Under the pieces are notes generated by a model. It was not told where the DNA came from. It ran no database searches and saw nothing but the letters and a program-made list of their open reading frames with translations. The position numbers and the translations under genes were made by a program. From contig JAFTLD010000094.1 in the NCBI GenBank assembly GCA_017452945.1, positions 1 to 13,466 on the forward strand: a stretch of 13,466 bases of DNA, given 5' to 3'. This DNA is from Clostridia bacterium (GTDB lineage: Bacteria > Bacillota_A > Clostridia > Oscillospirales > CAG-272). Within the stretch, counting starts at the first letter, position 1. Each line of letters opens with the position of its first letter. Shown here piece after piece: positions 2,433 through 11,914 of this stretch.

Positions 2433-2514
2433 TGGTTGCTTTTTCTTTGTCTATCGCATATTGAACGTAATTTTGGCAGGCAGTGTTTCGAAAAATGATG
2501 CAGATTCCGCGTCG

Positions 2515-2563
2515 CGCAGGGATATGATTCGATGTCATCCCGGTCGAGGCTGCTATCCCTGCG
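2515..2563. repeat. Second palindrome, 10-bp arms
   Basis: CGCAGGGATA (2515-2524) pairs exactly with TATCCCTGCG (2554-2563) across a 29-bp loop containing TCATCCCGGTCGAGG. It lies 60 bp upstream of the ATPase start. It may be another dispersed repeat or a structured leader of the ATPase mRNA; the sequence does not decide between these. Confidence 0.4.
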
Positions 2564-2622
2564 TGCATTTCTCTTTTGTTTTTCGCATATATTCAAATGA
2601 AGAGGCATTGGGGGTGTGGAAT

Positions 2623-5280
2623 ATGAAAGCTGCGGTCATGCAAGGGTTGACTGAAGAGCAGGTGGACGCGGCGCGCAAGGCGTACGGAGCCAACGTGCTC
2701 AGTCAAAAAAAGCGAAAAGGGTTTATCCGTCAGTTTGTCGGAAATTTGGGAGATCCTATTATCAAGGTGCTGCTTTGCGCGCTGGGGATCCACGTAATAT
2801 TGATGTTTCGGCAGGCGGATTGGTTTGAGACCGTGGGCATTGCCATCTCGGTGTTTTTGGCTACGCTGATCTCCACCTTGTCCGAATACGGCTCGGAGGC
2901 TGCGTTTGCCAAGCTCAGTGAGAGCTGTCGCATGGGGGAGTGCCGTGTGCGCAGGGACGGTCACGTGCGGCAGATATCGGCAGACGATATTGTGGTAGGG
3001 GACGTGGTGCTTTTGCAAGCGGGGGAGATGATCCCGGCTGACGGCAGATTGCTCTGGGGGACTTTGTCGGTGGATCAATCCAGCATGACCGGAGAGAGTG
3101 CTGCCATGCAAAAAAGACCGGGACACGGCGGTGAGCATATACCGCAGAATCCTGCGTGTGTTTTTGGCGGTTGCACTGTGCTGCAAGGAGAGGGCGAGAT
3201 GCTGGTGGAGGCAGTGGGGGACGCTACCTTTTTGGGCGGCATATCGGGTGAAGTGCAGACCGAAGTGCGCGATAGCCCGTTAAAGGTGCGGCTTGGCAAG
3301 CTGGCGCAGCAGATCTCGCGCATGGGGTACACGGCAGCCGTGCTGGTAGCGGTGGTGTACCTGATCCATGCGTTTGTGCTGGACGCGGGATTTGACGCAG
3401 AGATCATGATGCACCGCCTGCGCGATTGGCAATTCGTGCTGGAGCAGTTGTTTCGCGCTCTGACGCTTGGGCTGAGTGTCGTGGTCATGGCTGTCCCGGA
3501 AGGACTTCCAATGATGGTGGCGGTGGTGCTTTCCTCCAACGTAAAGCGCATGATCCGCGATCACGTGCTGGTCAGAAAGCCCGCAGGCATTGAGGCCGCG
3601 GGCAGTATGAATATTTTGTTTACCGATAAGACGGGTACGCTGACGTACGGAAAAATGCGGGCAACTGCGCTGCATCTCGGCACAGGTGAGGTGCTTACGC
3701 TGCCGCTTTTGCGAAAAGGTGAGCTGTCCGACGTATATGCATGCGCTTGCCTGTGTAATACCTCCGCCATGGCCGAGCGAGATGCAAAAGATGGGAGCGT
3801 GCGTGCCATTGGCGGAAACGCCACGGATCGCGCCTTGTTCGAAAGCGCTTTGTCTGACGGAAAAAAACTGCCGACTGTCGGTGCAGCGGCTTGGAAGCTG
3901 CCGTTTGAAAGCGAACGCAAATATGCGGCCGCCATGTGCGACGGACAGGTACACCTAAAGGGTGCTCCCGAGCGCATTTTGCCTTTTGTGCGGCGCGTGC
4001 TTGATAAGAATGGGCGTGAGGTTGCTGCGGATTCTGCAGCATTACAGACACTTTCACGGGATCTGGCGGCCAAAGGCAAGCGCGTGTTAGCATTGGCTTT
4101 TTGCCGTGAGAAGGGAACCGAGGCGCAGTATGCAGCGGGGGACTTCGGGCCTTTGGTGCTGATCGGATTGGCCGTCTTGGAGGACGGCTTGCGTAAAGAA
4201 GCTCCGAAAGCCGTAGCTGAGCTGCGCGGAGCGGGGGTGCAGGTGGTCATGATCACGGGGGACGGCAAGCAGACCGCCGAGCGCATTGCACGCGCATGCG
4301 GCATTTTGGGGAGCGGTGTGGATACTGTGTTGGACGGTACCGAGCTTGCCGCCATGAGTGACGAAGTGCTGCGTGAGCTGTTGCCTCGCATCGGTGTGGT
4401 GGCGCGTGCGTTGCCTTCTGATAAAAGCCGGCTTGTGCGGTTGGCTCAGGAACGTGATCTCGTTGTGGGTATGACGGGGGACGGCATCAACGATGCCCCC
4501 GCTCTGCGCAAGGCTGACGTTGGCTTTGCTATGGGGGACGGTACGCAGGTTGCCCGCGAAGCAGGGGACATTATCCTACTAGATAATAATCTTGCCTCGG
4601 TGGTCAACGCAGTGCTGTACGGGCGCACCGTATTCAAAAGCATCCGCAAATTTATCGTGTTGCAGCTGACCATGAATTTCTGCGCTGTAGGCGTTTCCAT
4701 GATCTGTCCGTTTTTGGGCTACGATGCGCCCGTGACCGTGGTGCAAATGCTGTGGATCAATATGATCATGGATACGCTGGGCGGCCTTGCCTTTGCGGGC
4801 GAAGCACCCAAGGCATTTTACATGAAGGAGCCGCCCAAGCGGCGTGATGAGCCGATACTCAATGGGTACATGATCTTTCAGATTTTTTGGCAGGGACTTG
4901 CCACGGTGGTCGTGTGTCTTTCTCTTTTGATCATGCCTGCCATCACGGGGCGGTTCCGTCCCGCTCCCGACAATATATATCTGCTGACCGCCTTTTTCGC
5001 ACTGTTCATTTTCATGTCGGTGTGTAATTGCTTCAACGCGAGAACCGATCGGCTGCGACTTTTGGCGGGTATTGGGAAAAACCCCGGCTTTATCGGTATA
5101 ATGCTGGCCGTGACCGTCATTCAGATCGTATTTGTCTATCTTGGCGGCAGCGTGCTGCGCACAGCTCCTTTGACGCTTTCCGAGCTTGGCTTTACCTTCT
5201 CTCTTGCGCTTTTGGCCATCCCCACCGAGCTTTTGCGCAAGATCGTGTGGCGCCTTTGCGGCAAAAAAACGGGGTATTGA
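2623..5280 (+). CDS. PMCA-type (P2B) calcium-transporting P-type ATPase
   Basis: An 885-residue membrane pump that would use ATP to export Ca2+. The N-terminal cation-ATPase domain (GLTEEQVDAARKAYGANVL) leads into M1/M2. Key motifs: TGES in the actuator domain (156-159), PEGLP in M4 (292-296), DKTGTLT with phosphorylated Asp335, KGAPE in the nucleotide-binding domain (446-450), TGDGIND hinge (618-624), and N713/D717 in M6 (WINMIMDTLGG). M5 reads FIVLQLTMN, like PMCA pumps, and lacks the acidic residue of SERCA site I, so one Ca2+ per cycle is expected. Four C-terminal membrane segments follow. Start choice: the frame is open from 2461, but the ATG at 2623 follows a GGGGGTG ribosome binding site (2610-2616) and begins where family similarity starts; the upstream 54 codons overlap a palindrome. 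Ion specificity is inferred from motifs only. Confidence 0.9.
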   Translation: MKAAVMQGLTEEQVDAARKAYGANVLSQKKRKGFIRQFVGNLGDPIIKVLLCALGIHVILMFRQADWFETVGIAISVFLATLISTLSEYGSEAAFAKLSESCRMGECRVRRDGHVRQISADDIVVGDVVLLQAGEMIPADGRLLWGTLSVDQSSMTGESAAMQKRPGHGGEHIPQNPACVFGGCTVLQGEGEMLVEAVGDATFLGGISGEVQTEVRDSPLKVRLGKLAQQISRMGYTAAVLVAVVYLIHAFVLDAGFDAEIMMHRLRDWQFVLEQLFRALTLGLSVVVMAVPEGLPMMVAVVLSSNVKRMIRDHVLVRKPAGIEAAGSMNILFTDKTGTLTYGKMRATALHLGTGEVLTLPLLRKGELSDVYACACLCNTSAMAERDAKDGSVRAIGGNATDRALFESALSDGKKLPTVGAAAWKLPFESERKYAAAMCDGQVHLKGAPERILPFVRRVLDKNGREVAADSAALQTLSRDLAAKGKRVLALAFCREKGTEAQYAAGDFGPLVLIGLAVLEDGLRKEAPKAVAELRGAGVQVVMITGDGKQTAERIARACGILGSGVDTVLDGTELAAMSDEVLRELLPRIGVVARALPSDKSRLVRLAQERDLVVGMTGDGINDAPALRKADVGFAMGDGTQVAREAGDIILLDNNLASVVNAVLYGRTVFKSIRKFIVLQLTMNFCAVGVSMICPFLGYDAPVTVVQMLWINMIMDTLGGLAFAGEAPKAFYMKEPPKRRDEPILNGYMIFQIFWQGLATVVVCLSLLIMPAITGRFRPAPDNIYLLTAFFALFIFMSVCNCFNARTDRLRLLAGIGKNPGFIGIMLAVTVIQIVFVYLGGSVLRTAPLTLSELGFTFSLALLAIPTELLRKIVWRLCGKKTGY

Positions 5281-5295
5281 AATACGATCCGAGCA

Positions 5296-5320
5296 GGGCG
5301 GGGCTTTGTGTCCCGCCCTT
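5296..5320 (+). terminator. Hairpin after the calcium ATPase
   Basis: GGGCGGG (5296-5302) pairs with CCCGCCC (5312-5318) over a 9-nt loop, starting 15 bp after the ATPase stop. The T-run is poor (TTGCAT), so it may be a weak terminator or an mRNA-stabilising hairpin. A separate promoter for the recombinase follows. Confidence 0.5.
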
Positions 5321-5332
5321 GCATATTGGGGA

Positions 5333-5361
5333 ACGACATCCGGCAAGACTTATGCTATAAT
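5333..5361 (+). promoter_or_regulatory. Extended -10 promoter of the recombinase
   Basis: A perfect TATAAT (5356-5361) carries the TGN extension (TGC at 5353-5355), with ACGACA 17 bp upstream (5333-5338; 4 of 6 to TTGACA). Transcription would start near 5368, giving a short leader before the AAAGGAG ribosome binding site. The promoter lies outside the invertible segment, so recombinase expression should not depend on switch orientation. Confidence 0.7.
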
Positions 5362-5382
5362 GCGAACAAAGGAGATGATGGG

Positions 5383-6222
5383 ATGTTGATTTTGACGGCA
5401 GAGCTGACGGATGCGTTTGAAAAGGCTTTGAGAGAGCAGGAAAGAGCCGTGGCCACGATTGAAAAATATATGCGAGATTTGCGTGCGTTTTGGGAATACG
5501 TGGGGGACGGGGATATAAATAAGCAAGCCGTGCTTGATTACAAGGCACATTTGCAGAGAAAATATGCCACCGCCAGCGTGAACAGCGTGCTGTCCTCGTT
5601 GGGGGCTTTTTTTGTATTCTGTGAGCGCAGAGATCTGTGCGTCAAGCGCATCAAGCAGCAGAAAAACGTGTTTGTAGCCAAGGAAAAGGAGCTGTCACGC
5701 GCGGAATACGAAAGATTGCTGCAAGCCGCGCAGGATAAGGGCAACCGCCGCCTGTATTTGCTTATGCAGACCGTGTGCGGCTGCGGCATTCGCGTGTCCG
5801 AACTGCAATTTATCACGGTTGAGGCGGTCGCGTGCGGATATGCGGACATTGCCTGCAAGGGCAAAAGACGGCGCGTGTATTTGCCGGGAGAATTGTGCCG
5901 TCAGCTGAAAAACTACGTGAAGGAAAAGGGGATCAGATCGGGCGCGGTGTTTGTCACGAGAAGCGGCAAGCCCTTGGATCGCTCGAATATCTGGTTGGAT
6001 ATGAAAAAATTATGCCAAGCGGCGCGTGTAGCGGAAAGTAAGGTGTTTCCGCATAACCTGCGCCACCTTTTCGCGCGCACGTTTTACTCCATCCACAAGG
6101 ATATCGTGCGCCTTGCCGACATTCTTGGACATTCCACCGTGGACACCACGCGCATTTATACCATGGAAAGCGGTGACGTCCATTGCAAGCAGATCAACCG
6201 CTTGAATTTGGTGCGATGTTAG
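5383..6222 (+). CDS. Tyrosine recombinase, probable invertase of the adjacent switch
   Basis: A 279-residue integrase of the Xer/phage-integrase fold. The N-terminal core-binding (SAM-like) domain spans ~1-95 (ATIEKYMRDLRAFWEYV). The catalytic domain, ~105-279, keeps the full catalytic set: Arg137 (GIRVSEL), Lys159 (KGKRRR), His224 and Arg227 (HNLRH), His250 (LGHSTVDTT) and nucleophile Tyr259 (RIYT). Length is typical for stand-alone Xer-like invertases; there is no arm-binding domain as in large phage integrases, and no excisionase or phage gene nearby. The ATG is 8 bp after AAGGAG (5369-5374); the upstream in-frame ATG has no ribosome binding site. The gene ends 23 bp before the left recombination site. 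I infer that it inverts the neighbouring segment; it could also act at other sites in the genome. It is unlikely to be the housekeeping XerC/D, given its position. Confidence 0.9.
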   Translation: MLILTAELTDAFEKALREQERAVATIEKYMRDLRAFWEYVGDGDINKQAVLDYKAHLQRKYATASVNSVLSSLGAFFVFCERRDLCVKRIKQQKNVFVAKEKELSRAEYERLLQAAQDKGNRRLYLLMQTVCGCGIRVSELQFITVEAVACGYADIACKGKRRRVYLPGELCRQLKNYVKEKGIRSGAVFVTRSGKPLDRSNIWLDMKKLCQAARVAESKVFPHNLRHLFARTFYSIHKDIVRLADILGHSTVDTTRIYTMESGDVHCKQINRLNLVRC

Positions 6223-6236
6223 CCCAAAAACAGGGC

Positions 6237-6270
6237 AAAAAAAGCACCACATAATTCGCATTATGTGGTG
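6237..6270 (-). terminator. Left site doubles as leftward terminator (OFF state)
   Basis: Read leftward, the 26-nt palindrome 6270-6245 (10-bp stem, 6-nt loop) is followed by C and then seven T (6243-6237), the form of an intrinsic terminator. It would stop transcripts from the internal promoter about 50 nt after their start when the segment is in the orientation seen here, keeping them out of the recombinase gene in antisense. Read rightward the hairpin is followed by AAAATA and should not terminate. Confidence 0.6.
6246..6269 (+). repeat. Recombination site, left (IRL)
   Basis: The 9-bp arms ACCACATAA and TTATGTGGT flank the asymmetric 6-bp spacer TTCGCA (6255-6260). This is the usual form of a tyrosine-recombinase core site: two inverted monomer-binding arms around a crossover region of 6-8 bp. 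The arm symmetry extends one more pair (C/G) outward. The identical sequence occurs in reverse orientation at 6466-6489. Confidence 0.9.
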
Positions 6271-6292
6271 AAAATATTTGATTACATAAAAA

Positions 6293-6321
6293 ATTATACA
6301 GAAAAAAGTGGTGGTTGTCAA
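6293..6321 (-). promoter_or_regulatory. Perfect consensus promoter inside the invertible segment, facing left
   Basis: On the minus strand TTGACA (6321-6316) and TATAAT (6298-6293) are separated by exactly 17 bp, matching the sigma-A consensus at all 12 positions. As written it fires toward the recombinase 3' end. After inversion (coordinate x becomes 12735-x) the -35 would sit at 6414-6419 and the -10 at 6437-6442, with a start near 6449 and a leader of about 60 nt before the lipoprotein ATG. A second TTGAC lies 12 bp further upstream (6333-6329). Confidence 0.88.
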
Positions 6322-6372
6322 CCCAAAAGTCAATAAAAGTGCAGTTATTTTCAGAAAAATCCGCGACAAACC

Positions 6373-6419
6373 GACCAATGAGAGAAAAATTTTCGAAAAT
6401 CTTTCTCATTGGTCCTTTT
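6373..6419 (+). terminator. Internal hairpin, probable insulator terminator
   Basis: GACCAATGAGA (6373-6383) pairs perfectly with TCTCATTGGTC (6404-6414). The middle contains the palindrome ATTTTCGAAAAT (6389-6400), and CTTTTC follows on the plus strand. In the present orientation it lies between recombinase and lipoprotein gene and would stop read-through. After inversion it would lie upstream of the promoter, with the weaker GGTTTG tail. It may instead bind a protein; terminator efficiency is not established. Confidence 0.55.
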
Positions 6420-6465
6420 CTGCACTCAAAATCGCGAGAGGTTTTATTTTTTTGTCAGGCAAATT

Positions 6466-6489
6466 ACCACATAATGCGAATTATGTGGT
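6466..6489 (-). repeat. Recombination site, right (IRR)
   Basis: The same arms, ACCACATAA and TTATGTGGT, flank spacer TGCGAA (6475-6480), the reverse complement of the left spacer TTCGCA. The two sites therefore face each other, and exchange gives inversion and not deletion. It ends 21 bp before the lipoprotein start codon, next to the ribosome binding site, so in the ON state the site would be a hairpin in the mRNA leader. No T-run follows, so it should not terminate. Confidence 0.9.
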
Positions 6490-6510
6490 AAAGAGAGAAG
6501 GAGAAAGAAC

Positions 6511-9222
6511 ATGAAAAAAGTGGCTTTAAGAGCAGTTGCAATTGCTTTGCTGGCGGTGCTTGTTGTCATGTGCGTTTCCTGCACAGGCCCTCAGGGCGAG
6601 ACCGGACCGCAAGGTGAAGCGGGCGTACAGGGCGAACAAGGCATTCAGGGCATCCAAGGTGAAGTAGGTCCTCAAGGCCCTCAGGGTGAACAAGGCATCC
6701 AGGGCGAAGTCGGTCCTCAAGGCCCGCAAGGCGAAAAGGGTGACAAGGGTGACACCGGTGCGCAAGGCGAACAGGGCGTACAAGGCGAAGTCGGTCCTCA
6801 AGGCCCACAAGGTGAAAAGGGCGACAAGGGTGACACCGGTGCGCAGGGCGAACAGGGCGTACAAGGCGAAGTCGGTCCTCAAGGCCCTCAGGGTGAGCAG
6901 GGCATCCAGGGTGAAGTCGGTCCTCAAGGTCCTCAGGGTGAACAAGGTATCCAGGGTGAAGTCGGACCTCAAGGTCCTCAAGGTGAACAAGGTATCCAGG
7001 GCGTTCCCGGCAACGACGGTGTGGGTATCACCGATATTTCGTTTGTTTCGTCAGACGGTGTGCAGGATACTTACAGAATCACCTATGCCGATGGCAAAAC
7101 CGTCGACTTTACCGTAACAAACGGTAACAAGGGCGATAAGGGAGATAAAGGTGACAAGGGCGATACGGGTGCTGTTGGTAAATCCGCATTTGAGCTTTAC
7201 TGTGATAAGTATGGCTTTGAGGGCACGGAGGATGAATGGCTTGCAACCATGAACAAGGAGCTGTTCACAAGATACACCGTGACTTTCGATTATGATGGCG
7301 GTACCCCCTCTGATGGCGCAGTAACTGAGCTGTCCGTTCCCGTATATTCGACAATTGAGCTGGATACTCCCGAAAAGGAAGGATATATCTTCCTTGGTTG
7401 GTTTGCGGGAGAAGGCGCAAATGCTGCACAATTCACGTCTGCATCGATTGTCAGTCGTGATATGACCCTGACGGCTAAGTGGGCGCAGCTGTCGTATACG
7501 GTGACGTTTATGGATTATTACAGTGATACCGTAGATGTTGTCACTGTTATGCACGGTGAAGCAGCTAACGCTCCGATCGTTCCTTCGAAGATCAAGGATG
7601 GTACCATGGTTTTCAGCAAGTGGGATGTGGATTACTCTTGCGTCACGCAGGATTTGACCGTTCAAGCGGTGTATGTGATTGATCAGTATACCGTTACGTT
7701 CAACACCAATGGTGGTAGTGAGATTCAAAATGCAACGTATTATGTTGGCACGATCCCGGATATGCCCGAGAATCCCACCAAGGGTGGCTATCATTTCCTT
7801 GGCTGGTATTTGGATGAGGCACTGACTGTGCCGTACGCCTTTGATAGTGCGCTGAACGAGAATACAACGCTGTATGCAAACTTCTCCGAAAGTATGCCAA
7901 TATACACGGCAGAAGATCTGATGAACATTACCAATAACCCCGAGGGCAACTATTATTTGGCAAATGATATTGACTTGGACGGATGTTCATGGACACCTAT
8001 TGAGACCTTCAGCGGAACTTTGGACGGACAAGGACACAGTGTTATGTGCTTTGTTATTTCGTCGCCGGATCATCTTAACTCCGGACTCTTCGGTGTGAAT
8101 AACGGAACGATCCGAAATCTGACCGTTTCGGATTTCATGGTAACAACATCAAACGGTAACGGCACAGATATAGTTGGTGTACTGGTGGGAGAGAACAATG
8201 CTACCATTGAGAATTGCAGCGTTGTGAATGGTGAAATGTCAATGGTTGCTGCACTCACCTATAAGCTGAATAAATATGTACATGTAGACTGCGGCTACGG
8301 GGCTATTGCAGGCATAAATCGTGGTACGATAGATGGGTGCTATGCAGATGTGAGCTTTGGCGCGTCGGGAGAGGTATATGACAATAGTAAGTATCTCAGG
8401 CTTTGTATTGGTGGCATTGCCGGTGATAACTATGCTGTCGTGTCGAATTGCACAAGTGAATGTGACGTGGAATTTGTCGGAAAAGGGCACACCGGCAACA
8501 ATAATGCTGACGTTGCAGGATGCATAGGCGGTATAGTTGGCTATAACCGTAACGGTGGTACAGTACTCGATTGTGAGAGCACGCAGGAAACGAGCATCGC
8601 AGTTTCCGCACAAAGACGCAGAAACACAATGAACCTTGGTTTGTGTGTGGGTCGTAATGACGGAGAAGTATTCACAAGTTCGTCTCAGGGGACGATTCAC
8701 GATGCGGGAAGTGCTACTTTGGCAAGCATCGGTGGATTTGTTGGAGAAAACTACGGTGTGGTCAACGATTGCTATGCTTTGAACGTTACAATCGAGGTTG
8801 CGTCTTCTGATCAAGGCGGTACGGGTGGCTTTGTCGGTTACAACTATAAGACCATTTCTCGCTGCTACAGTTCTGGTAGTGTTGTATCCGCTGCAACGTG
8901 GGGTATCGGTGGTTTTGCCGGCAGAAACCTGAATGGTAGTGCTGTTACGAAGTGCTTTACAAGTTGTAGTGTGCAGTCTAAATCGTCGACCAACGTGAAT
9001 TATCTTGTCGGTGTTATTGAGGATGGCGCAACAGCGCTCAAATGCTATTACAGCGAGTCCATGACCATCACCGTGAACGCAGAAACGTATGTTCCGGAAA
9101 AAACAAATGCAACAGCACAAAATGAAAGCGATTTCTTCACCGAGACATTCATTTGCGGTACTTTGACATGGGATAATGAAATATGGAGTATGAATGGGGA
9201 CGCTTTCCCTGTTCTCAAATAA
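6511..9222 (+). CDS. Collagen-like surface lipoprotein with InlB repeats and GLUG-type beta-helix
   Basis: A 903-residue exported protein. Residues 1-23 form a signal peptide (MKK, hydrophobic core, MCVSC); Cys24 is the likely lipidated residue, though the -3 Cys makes the lipobox unusual. A Gly-X-Y collagen-like stalk starts at once (26-172, 49 triplets), then a short linker domain ([20 protein letters not shown] type), a second Gly-X-Y run (208-223) and the KSAFEL...EDEWLA motif that often follows such stalks. Three Listeria-Bacteroides (InlB B) repeats follow (~255-327, 329-392, 393-460; YTVTF...FLGW). Residues ~464-903 are GLUG-like beta-helix repeats ([36 protein letters not shown]). There is no LPXTG, so the lipid is the anchor. 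The ribosome binding site AAGGAG (6498-6503) is 7 bp from ATG. A role as phase-variable adhesin is inferred; ligand unknown. Confidence 0.9.
6631..6999 (+). repeat. In-frame tandem repeats in the collagen-like stalk
   Basis: A 45-bp (15-residue) unit [15 protein letters not shown] occurs at residues 59-73, 128-142 and 143-157, with partial copies at both ends. A longer 81-bp (27-residue) unit beginning [10 protein letters not shown] occurs twice in tandem at 6730-6810 and 6811-6891. Repeat copies are nearly identical at DNA level, and every unit is a multiple of three, so slippage or recombination would change stalk length without breaking the frame. Confidence 0.85.
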
Positions 9223-9261
9223 GGGAAGACTTGCGTTCTCGCTGATGCAAGATTTATCTAA

Positions 9262-9354
9262 CAATCGAAAGAAGGAGCTGCGATTACGATTGGTACCGAT
9301 AACTCTTATCTGCAAAACGCTACCATTCACTACAACTACGTTCCCGAGGAATAA
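9262..9354 (+). pseudogene. Tail remnant of a BspA-type leucine-rich-repeat surface protein
   Basis: The frame ending in TAA at 9352-9354 encodes about 30 residues with EGAAITIGTDNSYL and ATIHYNYVPEE. This is the typical last repeat and C-terminus of BspA/LRR_5 surface proteins, where lines of the type ITIGSNNSYLTNATI(R/H)YYY recur. There is no start codon and a stop (TAA 9259-9261) lies just upstream in the same frame. I read it as the stump of a surface-protein gene whose 5' part was lost or replaced; it shares the terminator that follows. The assignment rests on remembered motifs. Confidence 0.6.
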
Positions 9355-9367
9355 GTAAATACATAGC

Positions 9368-9400
9368 AAAACCCGCGCCGGTTGGCGCGGGCTTTGTGTT
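9368..9400. terminator. Bidirectional intrinsic terminator
   Basis: CCCGCGCC (9372-9379) pairs with GGCGCGGG (9384-9391) over a GGTT loop. Rightward it is followed by CTTTGTGTTTCG; leftward by TTTTGC. It lies between the convergent lipoprotein locus and spoIIE and can serve both. Confidence 0.85.
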
Positions 9401-9403
9401 TCG

Positions 9404-11914
9404 TCAAGCACTCAGCTTATCGATCCGCATGACTGCGACCGACATATCATCCGTGCTGCCCGACTCGCGTGCGTGCAAGAGGATGGTTTCCTTGAGCACG
9501 GCGGGCTCTGTCCAAGGGGTATTGCCAAGCAGCGAGAGCAGCCAGGGGCAATCCTCGTTGCCGCCTGTGATGCCGTCACTGACCATGACGATGATATCCC
9601 CGCTGGAAAGCTCAAAGGGGATGATCTGTGCCTGTACCGTGTGCAGGATGCCGATGGGCGGTGTGTGCGCCTTGATCTTGAGCAGCTGCTTGCCGCGCAG
9701 CACGTAAGCGGGGACTGCACCGCTTTTGATAAAGTGTGCACTGCCGGTGATCAGGTCAATGCGCACCATATCAACGCCTACCGAGCATTCAGATTCAGGC
9801 TGATCGGAATGCGAACGTAGGTAGTTGTTGAGCATGCGCAACGAGATTTCGGGGCTGTTGCCCGCATACAGCATTTTTTCAAGGAAAACAGTGCAGACCT
9901 CGGCAGAAAAAGCGGCCTGTCTTCCGCTGCCCATGCCGTCGGTCAGAATGCCGTAGAAATACGAGGATTTGCCCGCAAAGCAGGAAAGGGCATCTCCCGA
10001 GGGGGCTTCGGGATCCAGAATTGCTTCGGAAGGAGCGGGAATCACGCCCGTATCAAACGACACGGCAAATTGGTCGCGCGCACACAGCATCATGACCGTG
10101 CTGTCCTTGGAGATCTCAAATACGGGATCGCCCAAGGGGGTGCCGCAGATGTTTTCCAAGGCTTCACGCAACTGATCGGGGGTGGTACGCCCTGCACCGA
10201 ATCCGACACCGCGCGCACAGATGCGCTTGGCACGCACGCCGCTGACCACAATGCTGCCCACGGCAATGCCCTGATCGGTCAGGTATCGGAAAATGCGCTC
10301 ACCCGTTTGCGCGTCCGCGCGAAATTCCTCGTTGTCCTCCTTGAGTGCGTCTGTCAGAAGATCGGCAATGGCTGCGTAATCTGCGGCAAATATGTGCGTT
10401 TTTTCGCTTTGTAAAAGTGAGGCGGTCATGTCGGCACATTGCTCGTTTGCCGCGGTAACGATCCTTTCGGTGCGCGGACAGGCGGAAAGTAAGCTCTGCG
10501 GCAGACAGGTCACGTCAGCCTTGCCCGAAAGGTGCAGAGCAGAGGTCAGCTTGCCAATGCTCTCCAGCGTGGTGCTGTATTCCGAGCCCCAGCAGATCTC
10601 ACGTCTGGGGCAATCAGCGCACGTGCCCTCAAAGGCTCTGTCGCAGATGCGGCGCAAATCCAGAAGGGCGGGGCGACGCAGCTTGTCGCACAGTTCATAA
10701 AAGGTTTCGGAAAGGCTGGTAAAGGCCTGCGCCATGCTTTCTGTGCGCTCCGCAGCACTGAGATTTCGGTTTTCCTGCGTGACCAATCTTGCAAATTCGC
10801 TCTCGCCAGCAAAATCACAGCCTTCACGGTCACATGTAACGGCATCTGCCATGGGTAAAAGCCATTTGTCTGCGGCAAACAGTACCGAACCGCCAAGCAG
10901 AATGGTGGGAAAAGCTGAAACAAAGCCCCAAAATCCACCAAGCAATGCGGTCCAGCCGCCTGCAAAGACCAGCGACGCTGCAAGCGCCAATCGATCGGAA
11001 AGCTGTGCGCAAAGTGTCCACAAAACAAGCCCGATGATAAAAATCGGTGAGTTGACGGGGTCAAAGGCAATGCCGCAACCCACAGCGCACAGCATGGCTG
11101 CGACAAAACCGCGCCGTTTCAATGTCAGATACACAAATGCAGCTGCCAGTATTGGAGAGAGCATGATCCCGAAAAAGGTGAAAGCGCGTACAGCATAGAC
11201 GGCGCCCATACAAACCGCCACAAGTGCAATATATCCCGAGAGGCGGTGTTGCTTTTCGGGCACGAACAGGGGAACGATCAGCCATATGCCAAACGGTACA
11301 CTTACCAGTAAAAAAAGCGTGCCGAACAGATCGTAGTATTGAAATCCTCCGAGCACGATGGCGAAGCCTCCCGCGATCAAAGCACCGATCGCACCGGTCA
11401 TCATACGCAATATGACAGCCTCACCGAAAAGCTGTGGCTTTTGCACGTTGGGCTCTGATTCGGGCAAAGCGGGTCTTGTGCCAAAAAAGCCGCCGTCCTC
11501 AATCTGCAAAAGCGCCCGGCTGAATTTATCATTGGGCAGGGGAGGAAGCTCTCGCAGATTGGCGCGTCCGCTGCCGACCAAAAGCGTTACCGCCACGCGC
11601 AAGGTCAGAATTCCCAGATACGCGCAAAGATAGCCCCATGGCGCGTCGGTAAAGGGCAGGGAGGCGCAAAGCCCCACGAAAATGTAAGGAATGCCTGTGC
11701 TGCCTGCGCAAAGCAGGATCATGCCTGCAGGATAGGTGCCGAAAAAAGCCCCCAAAAGCCCCAACAGCCAGGAGACCAGCATGATCCCGCCGCTGCGCAC
11801 AACGCTAAGCAAGATCTGCCGCCGCCGCACAGCTGAAGCGGTGTGCAGCCTCATTTTTGTCTTCCCAAAGGCTTGTCCCGTATCGGACGGGACGAATTCT
11901 GTCTTTTGTTGCAT
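9404..11914 (-). CDS. spoIIE: Stage II sporulation protein E (SpoIIE), PP2C-type phosphatase
   Basis: An 836-residue membrane phosphatase, close to the 827 residues of Bacillus subtilis SpoIIE. In the family it dephosphorylates SpoIIAA to activate sigma-F in the forespore and works with FtsZ at the polar septum. The N-terminal third (~30-350) is rich in hydrophobic segments, as in the family's ten-helix region. A middle regulatory region has a Cys cluster C424/C432/C435/C441 (CADCPRREICW), possibly metal-binding. The C-terminal PP2C domain (~620-836) has DGMGSG with Asp659, IKSGAVPAYV, VSDGI with Asp780 and STDDMS with Asp822/Asp823, the expected metal ligands. Start: the ATG at 11914 is 7 bp from GGAGG (11926-11922); an upstream TTG at 11929 overlaps that ribosome binding site and is unlikely. 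It indicates an endospore former. Confidence 0.95.
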   Translation of the reverse strand: MQQKTEFVPSDTGQAFGKTKMRLHTASAVRRRQILLSVVRSGGIMLVSWLLGLLGAFFGTYPAGMILLCAGSTGIPYIFVGLCASLPFTDAPWGYLCAYLGILTLRVAVTLLVGSGRANLRELPPLPNDKFSRALLQIEDGGFFGTRPALPESEPNVQKPQLFGEAVILRMMTGAIGALIAGGFAIVLGGFQYYDLFGTLFLLVSVPFGIWLIVPLFVPEKQHRLSGYIALVAVCMGAVYAVRAFTFFGIMLSPILAAAFVYLTLKRRGFVAAMLCAVGCGIAFDPVNSPIFIIGLVLWTLCAQLSDRLALAASLVFAGGWTALLGGFWGFVSAFPTILLGGSVLFAADKWLLPMADAVTCDREGCDFAGESEFARLVTQENRNLSAAERTESMAQAFTSLSETFYELCDKLRRPALLDLRRICDRAFEGTCADCPRREICWGSEYSTTLESIGKLTSALHLSGKADVTCLPQSLLSACPRTERIVTAANEQCADMTASLLQSEKTHIFAADYAAIADLLTDALKEDNEEFRADAQTGERIFRYLTDQGIAVGSIVVSGVRAKRICARGVGFGAGRTTPDQLREALENICGTPLGDPVFEISKDSTVMMLCARDQFAVSFDTGVIPAPSEAILDPEAPSGDALSCFAGKSSYFYGILTDGMGSGRQAAFSAEVCTVFLEKMLYAGNSPEISLRMLNNYLRSHSDQPESECSVGVDMVRIDLITGSAHFIKSGAVPAYVLRGKQLLKIKAHTPPIGILHTVQAQIIPFELSSGDIIVMVSDGITGGNEDCPWLLSLLGNTPWTEPAVLKETILLHARESGSTDDMSVAVMRIDKLSA

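Follow-up and report, generated by a model that had tools for sequence, protein, structure and literature searches.

A probable self-contained promoter-inversion cassette ahead of a collagen-like lipoprotein gene in a Clostridia bacterium

A contig of a gut bacterium of the class Clostridia carries a tyrosine recombinase gene, a short segment bounded by inverted sites and a gene for a large surface lipoprotein, in this order and within about 4 kb, which raises the question of whether these elements form a complete ON/OFF switch. The window considered here is the whole stretch of DNA that was analysed, 13,466 nucleotides in length. The initial annotation had read the locus as a self-contained phase-variation cassette, and the comparison with related loci agrees with it, since segments were found to be inverted between close relatives, the embedded promoters were found in both directions, and the arms of the sites track the adjacent recombinase. 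Judged from these sequence comparisons, the locus is in all probability a self-contained phase-variation cassette that acts through promoter inversion.

Components of the locus

The features of the locus are as follows.

5283..9407, no strand: unit of recombinase, invertible segment and cargo, ca. 4.1 kb, missing from the equivalent place in two congeners; boundaries approximate
5333..5361, plus: likely recombinase promoter, fixed: ACGACA-17-TATAAT, its -10 box preceded by TG (10/12, consensus match only)
5383..6222, plus: tyrosine recombinase, likely invertase, 279 aa (Pfam and NCBIfam matches, invariant catalytic residues, arm type tracking the recombinase tree)
6235..6270, minus: left site with its outer T-tract, probably terminator-like toward leftward transcripts (terminator scan; hairpin -14.8 kcal/mol, z -5.25)
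6246..6489, no strand: very likely invertible segment, 244 bp with both sites (exact inverted repeats; homologous segments inverted in relatives)
6246..6269, plus: left recombination site, core TCGC at 6256-6259
6293..6321, minus: predicted invertible promoter, TTGACA-17-TATAAT (12/12; strong promoter similarly placed in most relatives)
6373..6414, no strand: internal dyad, GACCAATGAGA...TCTCATTGGTC (fold -17.8 kcal/mol, z -4.66)
6466..6489, minus: right recombination site, core GCGA (plus strand) at 6476-6479
6498..6503, plus: AAGGAG, resembling a ribosome-binding site, ahead of the lipoprotein start (read from the sequence)
6511..9222, plus: probable lipoprotein, 903 aa, with collagen, Listeria-Bacteroides repeat (InlB-type) and GLUG domains

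The recombinase gene is intact, as had been proposed: its frame is open from the start codon at 5383 to a stop codon that ends at 6222, 23 bp before the left site, and its product matches Pfam Phage_integrase (5.8e-23) and an N-terminal SAM-like domain. Residues R137, K159, H224, R227, H250 and Y259, which do not vary among 36 aligned homologues, fit the catalytic set of tyrosine recombinases (R, K, H/R, H, Y), so that both the catalytic domain and the residues expected of such an enzyme are present. The TATGCTATAATG stretch of the region of its likely promoter is present in the related locus L002 as well.

The two sites are 24 nt each and 100% complementary to one another, so that the description of the 244-bp segment as bounded by exact inverted sites holds at 6246-6269 and 6466-6489. 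Each site is a near-palindrome in which an asymmetric 4-bp core lies between 10-bp arms, and a scan of the window that tolerated up to 3 mismatches detected the site pattern twice, vs no occurrence in 200 dinucleotide shuffles.

The initial annotation had also placed the only good promoter near the lipoprotein gene within the segment, without stating its direction. The promoter at 6293..6321, with a consensus match of 12/12, is indeed the best of three promoter-like sites detected between 5200 and 6600 by a scan in which calls are consensus matches with a threshold of 9/12, but it reads on the minus strand, from 6321 to 6293, and is thus directed away from the lipoprotein gene as assembled. 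Inversion would place it at 6414-6442 on the plus strand, where the consensus scan found no site of at least 9/12 between 6246 and 6511. The window therefore holds the promoter-away state, presumably OFF, and it shows what is expected of an inverton, namely inverted repeats around a short segment whose promoter reads outward. Downstream of the segment, the large probable lipoprotein with collagen, InlB-type and GLUG domains was found as claimed; its frame is open, and its lipobox, CVSC, which was read by eye, is slightly off consensus.

Site pairs and segment orientation in relatives

A set of 81 loci, 80 of them fetched in addition to the window, was used for comparison. A site pair lies behind the recombinase in 70 of the 81; among the other 11, in which no pair was recognised, five break off no more than 75 bp past the recombinase, three showed one site and three showed none. 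The first pair finder required complementary cores and allowed up to 3 mismatches in 14 per site, and because of this tolerance and this requirement the pairs of L046, L053, L064 and L067 are weak. When pairs were defined by their arms, complementarity not being demanded, the cores were complementary in 66 of 66 cases. Erosion of the sites beside a fixed promoter, which had been put forward as evidence against a switch, is not the rule in view of these complementary cores and of the labile orientation described below, yet 6 of the 81 loci have enough downstream DNA and lack a recognised pair. The sites follow the motif ACATAAY-NNNN-RTTATGT, and left cores comprised 41 different sequences, none of them palindromic. 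The idea that every cassette of a genome has a different core was ruled out, since one core is common to two cassettes in G001 and to four in G002; in G005, four cassettes have four different cores.

Among 291 genomes sampled from the class Clostridia, 45 have a recombinase match at E <= 1e-70. From the 66 matches listed, 20 stretches were hand-picked as a hold-out; L104 and L105 were left out because they repeat L030 and L024, and 15 of the remaining 18 loci likewise have an exact site pair. Canonical sites were found in the named strains Monoglobus pectinilyticus TSDC17.2-1.2 and Subdoligranulum variabile TSDC17.2-1.1. In viral contigs, the exact site pattern was not detected, nor were recombinase relatives in a search sensitive to close relatives only. 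At E <= 1e-30, matches to the recombinase appeared in 17 records of a plasmid collection and one of a phage collection, all below 60% identity; among the five of these that were fetched, three (L093, L095, L096) carry canonical site pairs, a different inverted pair occupies the equivalent place in L094, and no inverted pair was reported for L097.

A search of related genomes for the opposite orientation, proposed as a check on the switch, rendered inverted segments. Those of L063 and L072 match in 248 of 253 columns when aligned in inverted orientation, vs 149 of 280 when aligned directly, and homologous segments are mutually inverted also in the pairs L039/L051, L008/L016 and L005/L007; moreover, within a single MAG, the segment of L011 is inverted relative to those of L003 and L006. 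Promoter scores of 11 or 12 were reached in 37 of 70 segments, vs 14 of 1400 shuffles, weaker calls (9/12) being frequent in shuffles. With the loci being MAGs that provide one assembled orientation each, the promoter faces the gene in 19 of the 70, faces away in 47 and is unresolved in 4; an early impression, gained by eye from a few loci, that all promoters face away from the gene was thus wrong. The two orientations expected of an inverton in nature were found for relatives, and only the promoter-away state was seen in the species and genus of the window, represented by the window, L001 and L002, which alone make up its closest clade among the loci. It is very likely, in view of the relatives, that the segment inverts.

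The recombinase tree was built quickly from 80 sequences, after removal of L059, which has a stop in its frame, and has strong support on only 19 of 77 inner branches, with cargo labels assigned partly by eye. On this tree, arm type changes 9 times, vs a shuffled mean of 21.6 (none of 300 shuffles being as low), and orientation, the four unresolved loci being left out, changes 16 times, vs a shuffled mean of 16.1.

Proposed mechanism and alternative readings

In the mechanism that we propose, the recombinase would bind both near-palindromic sites, and strand exchange within or around their matched asymmetric core would invert the segment between them. In the ON state, the embedded sigma-70-type promoter would transcribe the collagen/InlB/GLUG lipoprotein gene. 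In the OFF state, the orientation found here, it would be directed at the recombinase gene, and the transcript would probably stop at the left site, with its hairpin and T-tract, while the recombinase would be transcribed from its own promoter outside the segment. On their outer flank, left sites have a run of at least 5 T in 31 of 70 loci, and right sites in 13 of 70. The architecture, the opposite orientation of homologous segments in close relatives and the correspondence of arms with the recombinase tree come from comparison of the loci; we infer that this recombinase is the flipping enzyme, that the predicted promoter is functional, that expression of the lipoprotein depends on the orientation of the segment and that the left site acts as a terminator.

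It is also possible, although we hold it to be rather unlikely, that the switch is invertible but regulated or strongly biased to OFF instead of freely stochastic, the lipoprotein being silent except under particular conditions and the internal dyad being the target of a regulator. Such a bias would account for the excess of promoters facing away (47 vs 19 of the 66 resolved, binomial p 0.0008) and for the common state of the window, L001 and L002; however, the loci are non-independent, orientation does not cluster on the tree, and the promoter faces the gene in 19 of the 70. The dyad itself, in any of three sequence forms, occurs in 37 of 70 loci vs 0 of 1400 shuffles, the patterns having been picked post hoc, and a looser search rendered a modest enrichment (score of at least 8 in 18 of 66 vs 18 of 330 shuffles); the dyad may also be an intrinsic terminator, but its T-tails are weak and vary between loci.

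A switch that is locked in the species of the window, with the recombinase or the sites defunct and the lipoprotein permanently off, is very unlikely. It would be in keeping with the single orientation of the three closest-clade members and with the stops in the recombinase frame of some relatives (L059, four matches of the 291-genome sample and one other match), but in the window the recombinase frame and its catalytic residues are intact, the 24-bp sites are exact and the cargo frame is open. Finally, the possibility that the inverted sites are merely transcription terminators or regulator sites, beside a recombinase from an unrelated integrated element, can practically be set aside: although the terminator scan picked up the left site together with its T-tract, and the unit as a whole is either found or missing between two genes, this would leave unexplained the inversion of the DNA between the sites among near-identical relatives, the asymmetric cores that are complementary within each pair and the arms that track the recombinase tree, and the 4.1-kb unit is not flanked by these sites.

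A family of cassettes and its relation to known systems

The cassette adjoins a spoIIE gene. In the two congeners that lack the unit (L091 and L092), an ATPase gene lies directly beside spoIIE, with neither recombinase nor lipoprotein, as judged from junctions obtained by blastn, and in G001/L002 the unit is also found at the equivalent place with a different cargo. Similar cassettes precede very diverse genes in relatives, including surface proteins, regulators and a TIR effector-like protein, so that the arrangement extends beyond this lipoprotein. PADLOC matches were obtained for 3 of 10 downstream proteins, namely a TIR protein (L029), a weak methyltransferase (L069) and a weak ShosA (L030).

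Preferring promoter inversion as the explanation of the locus, we put forward tentatively, as a proposal with somewhat less than even chances, that it is one of many plug-in phase-switch cassettes, which form a large family in gut Clostridia. Recombinase, switch and exchangeable cargo would be gained and lost as one unit, the 4-bp core would be an address matched within its own pair, not necessarily across cassettes, and the recombinase-side site would serve as OFF-state terminator too. The cargo that would be exchangeable in such a family comprises surface proteins, TetR-like regulators, SLOG proteins, a TIR effector-like protein, an NRPS module, a pilin-like protein and others. Enzyme, sites, promoter and cargo recur together as a compact unit across gut Clostridia, and, if the mechanism were true, sequence alone could predict the subpopulation switching of many gut traits.

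Regarding known proteins, the families nearest to the recombinase by profile, and the nearest solved structures by sequence, are XerA, XerC, XerD and XerH. Xer recombinases act at dif, whereas the enzyme considered here belongs to an inversion cassette and scores below the XerA, XerC and XerD equivalog cut-offs (130.6 vs 220, 110.7 vs 335.15 and 118.8 vs 329.6 bits, respectively). The cargo has the Pfam Collagen domain, but misses the curated NCBIfam cut-offs of the collagen-like adhesins SclA, SclB and Lcl (100.3 vs 400, 103.3 vs 325 and 99.3 vs 500 bits, respectively).

RecV of Clostridioides difficile, also a member of the Clostridia, serves several unlinked loci, and its site sequences differ from those found here. 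RecV is likewise reported to be a tyrosine recombinase that inverts short segments upstream of genes, its targets including the switch ahead of the flgB operon, whereas in 70 of the 81 loci the enzyme lies beside its own segment. The UpaE element of uropathogenic E. coli is also reported to contain a promoter that is inverted by tyrosine recombinases and switches a surface protein, in another phylum and with another cargo.

The closest counterpart is inverton group 139 with invertase group 35 (Microbiome 2025;13:71, PMC11892184), in which, within the portion of that report considered, a tyrosine-type recombinase lies beside nearly every inverton, 32 of 33 invertons are from Clostridia, and the one example given with coordinates, from Clostridium sp. 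D5, spans 257 bp with repeats of 26 bp, similar to the 24 and 244 bp found here. The Clostridia host and a tyrosine-type recombinase within 5 kb, which characterise these groups, are both found in our case, the recombinase being 23 bp away, and the cassette family may be the same as group 139/invertase group 35, the comparison being by description. Within the same portion of the report, group 139 is described with no mention of private cores, of terminator-like sites, of a unit that is gained and lost or of collagen-like cargo. The suggestion that the combination may be undescribed is thus limited to the particular cargo and the details of the cassette, because the kind is known and the family may already be catalogued; within these bounds, the private 4-bp core of each cassette together with the very diverse cargo are possibly new.

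Architecture of the probable switch in the window

The initial annotation had described a self-contained phase-variation cassette at 5383-9222, made up of a tyrosine recombinase, an invertible promoter and a collagen-like lipoprotein, and its coordinates and lengths for the recombinase gene, the 244-bp segment, the exact 24-bp inverted sites and the lipoprotein gene proved to be correct. The order in the window is P-ATPase, recombinase, segment, lipoprotein and spoIIE:

2461-5280, frame of a calcium-type P-ATPase gene
5333-5361, likely own promoter of the recombinase gene, outside the segment
5383-6222, tyrosine recombinase gene
6246-6489, 244-bp segment bounded by exact 24-bp inverted sites
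6498-6503, AAGGAG before the lipoprotein start
6511-9222, probable lipoprotein gene, 903 codons
9404-11929, spoIIE, on the strand opposite to the other genes listed

Each site is a near-palindrome in which two 10-bp arms flank an asymmetric 4-bp core (TCGC, reading GCGA at the right site), so that direction is set by the core only. None of 200 dinucleotide shuffles of the window contained the site pattern with up to 3 mismatches. The recombinase would pair both sites, cut around the core and invert the segment.

The only strong promoter of the segment (TTGACA-17-TATAAT, 12/12) lies at 6321-6293 on the minus strand and points to the recombinase gene, and the promoter scan rendered no plus-strand promoter at its threshold from the left site to the lipoprotein start, so that the window shows the presumed OFF state. 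The promoter announced by the initial annotation is therefore present in the segment, but as assembled it faces the recombinase and not the lipoprotein gene. By arithmetic, inversion would place it at 6414-6442, 68 bp 5' of the ATG, and the leader would then contain the right site as a hairpin. The -10 region of the recombinase's likely own promoter is also found in L002, the orthologous locus of genome G001.

Site pairs and inversion among related recombinases

One genome per species was scanned, and the best 80 of 555 confirmed loci, whose records are titled Clostridia, Oscillospiraceae, Lachnospiraceae and similar and are for the most part gut metagenome-assembled genomes (MAGs), were considered together with the window. 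A site pair (ACATAAY-NNNN-RTTATGT, with complementary cores required and no more than 3 of the 14 positions of a site mismatched) was found behind the recombinase in 70 of these 81 loci. In five of the 11 others the contig stops at most 75 bp past the recombinase (L021, L032, L043, L044, L047), three have one site only (L009, L045, L078), and the same pattern search detected no site in L062, L068 and L075. In a hold-out of 20 of 66 matches from an even sample of the class, two of them repeats of earlier loci, 15 of the 18 non-repeat loci carried the pair; as for the misses, L103 has an inverted pair spaced just 120 bp, whereas different inverted repeats occupy the corresponding place in L116 and L117.

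When complementarity was not required, the cores were still complementary in all 66 loci with two arm-defined sites. A requirement of inversion for matching cores would account for this perfect match within pairs despite 41 distinct left cores, none of them palindromic (p about 0.07 on 41 cores). Similar enzymes can have different cores: recombinases 93% (L007, L013) and 95% (L008, L015) identical have cores TCTC vs CTTC and TCTC vs TCCT, respectively. On a quick tree built from 80 recombinases, 65 of them with clear orientation and with strong support on 19 of 77 inner branches, the core changes 43 times vs a shuffled mean of 59.1, i.e. not randomly, and in some genomes one core is common to several cassettes, so that it would not in every case be the private address of a cassette.

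Segments of close relatives, aligned in both directions, are often inverted relative to one another. An example is L063 vs L072, where 248 of 253 aligned columns match with one segment inverted and 149 of 280 as they stand, the 38 bp from recombinase to site being identical. L039/L051, L008/L016 and L005/L007 are further inverted pairs, and the segment of L011 is inverted relative to those of L003 and L006, all three in one MAG; other related pairs share their orientation (e.g. L057/L059, L001/L002, L056/L061). The promoter points toward the cargo gene in 19 of the 70 loci and away in 47, with no clear call in four. In 37 of 70 segments the best promoter had at least 11 of the 12 consensus bases, vs 14 of 1400 mononucleotide shuffles, in which scores of 9 are common, so that some single orientation calls are unsure. 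The excess of away (p 0.0008, the loci not being independent) may reflect an OFF bias. On the tree, orientation changes 16 times (shuffled mean 16.1) and arm type 9 times (shuffled mean 21.6; 0 of 300 shuffles as low), indicating that orientation is labile and that the site arms go with the enzyme. The window, L001 and L002 are all away, so no flipping was seen within this genus.

A transcript from the promoter in its OFF orientation would run into the hairpin of the left site (-14.8 kcal/mol, z -5.25, in the window) and then the adjoining T-tract; no T-tract follows the hairpin of the window's right site. Five or more consecutive T adjoin the outer side of the left site in 31 of 70 loci, fewer than half, and that of the right site in 13 of 70 (Fisher p 0.002). 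An internal dyad lies at 6373-6414 in the window, ca. 50 bp upstream of the -35; 37 of 70 loci have it, in three alternative sequence forms, and it may be a terminator, insulator or regulator site.

Downstream of the recombinase, extra tandem site copies, spaced ca. 30-41 bp, flank the left or right site in L010, L023, L024, L026, L039, L040, L041, L050, L051, L057, L059 and L079, and would move from one end to the other upon full-length inversion. In L059 and a few further relatives a stop interrupts the recombinase frame, which may mean a locked switch or an assembly error. Canonical site pairs also adjoin the recombinase in L093, L095 and L096, records labelled plasmids; these come from Monoglobus pectinilyticus and Subdoligranulum variabile strains that bear names, which makes them useful material for bench tests.

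Cargo genes and gain or loss of the unit

Cargo was picked mechanically as the first frame past the right site that either reached 80 aa or ran open into the end of the contig, and 40 of 66 such frames, the window's own not counted, were scanned against Pfam. Surface or secreted-type domains were found in 15 (LRR_5, List_Bact_rpt, cohesin/dockerin, SLH, collagen, VWA, camelysin, and MACPF among those of L006), and no Pfam match in seven. The other 18, several of them with matches below the curated cut-off (L023, L041, L058, L069), include TetR-like, YpsA/SLOG, a TIR effector-like domain with cupin, an NRPS module, UDP-galactopyranose mutase, CheW, SPFH, GRAM/PH, a metallo-beta-lactamase fold, a pilin-like N-terminus, a serine recombinase, and zinc-ribbon and methyltransferase matches. 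Cargo class, assigned partly by eye, follows the phylogeny of the recombinases only weakly (29 changes vs a shuffled mean of 35.2). The TIR effector-like protein with cupin domain lies behind the cassette of L029 (6266-7810), with the promoter away, and is possibly a phase-variable defence.

By its SpoIIE the window is closely tied to the genus of G001 (spoIIE 85% in G001, 81% in G014, 79% in G015; no match in G013). The orthologous place in G001, L002, holds a related cassette with an 82% identical recombinase, the same core and a collagen/GLUG cargo, while in G014 (L091) and G015 (L092) the ATPase and spoIIE genes adjoin at 177 and 48 bp, respectively, and the DNA between them matches neither the recombinase nor the lipoprotein. 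At this place, therefore, the unit (ca. 5283-9407) is either there or missing as a whole. A single recombinase relative (55%) is found elsewhere in G015, and G013 and G014 have matches of only ca. 32%. The fragment 9262-9354, 3' of the lipoprotein gene, has a translation ending in ATIHYNYVPEE, an ending that resembles that of the LRR lipoprotein cargo of L001; the fragment is a likely leftover and hints at the swapping of cargo. Between genes, at 2313-2432, the window has a long palindrome-like repeat whose two arms of 60 nt are 80% complementary, and L091 has similar palindromes, rich in CCCCTAC, in the gap from its ATPase gene to spoIIE.

Relation to known invertible promoters

Promoter inversion by tyrosine recombinases has long been known. 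The cassette and switch mechanism put forward by the initial annotation hold as far as comparison of sites and of inverted segments in relatives reaches. In the open-licence literature, no paper was found that joins collagen-like cargo with invertible phase variation, nor, judged by title or abstract start, any other on this cassette family than the following. The nearest published item found, on a defined gut community, describes inverton group 139 and invertase group 35; of the 33 group 139 invertons, 32 are in Clostridia, nearly all with the invertase close by, and one in Clostridium sp. D5 changed orientation across passages (PMC11892184). From this description it is plausible that the family belongs to the group. 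The kind of switch is already known, and it is the family that is most interesting, since one compact design with matching cores stands before many genes unrelated to one another.
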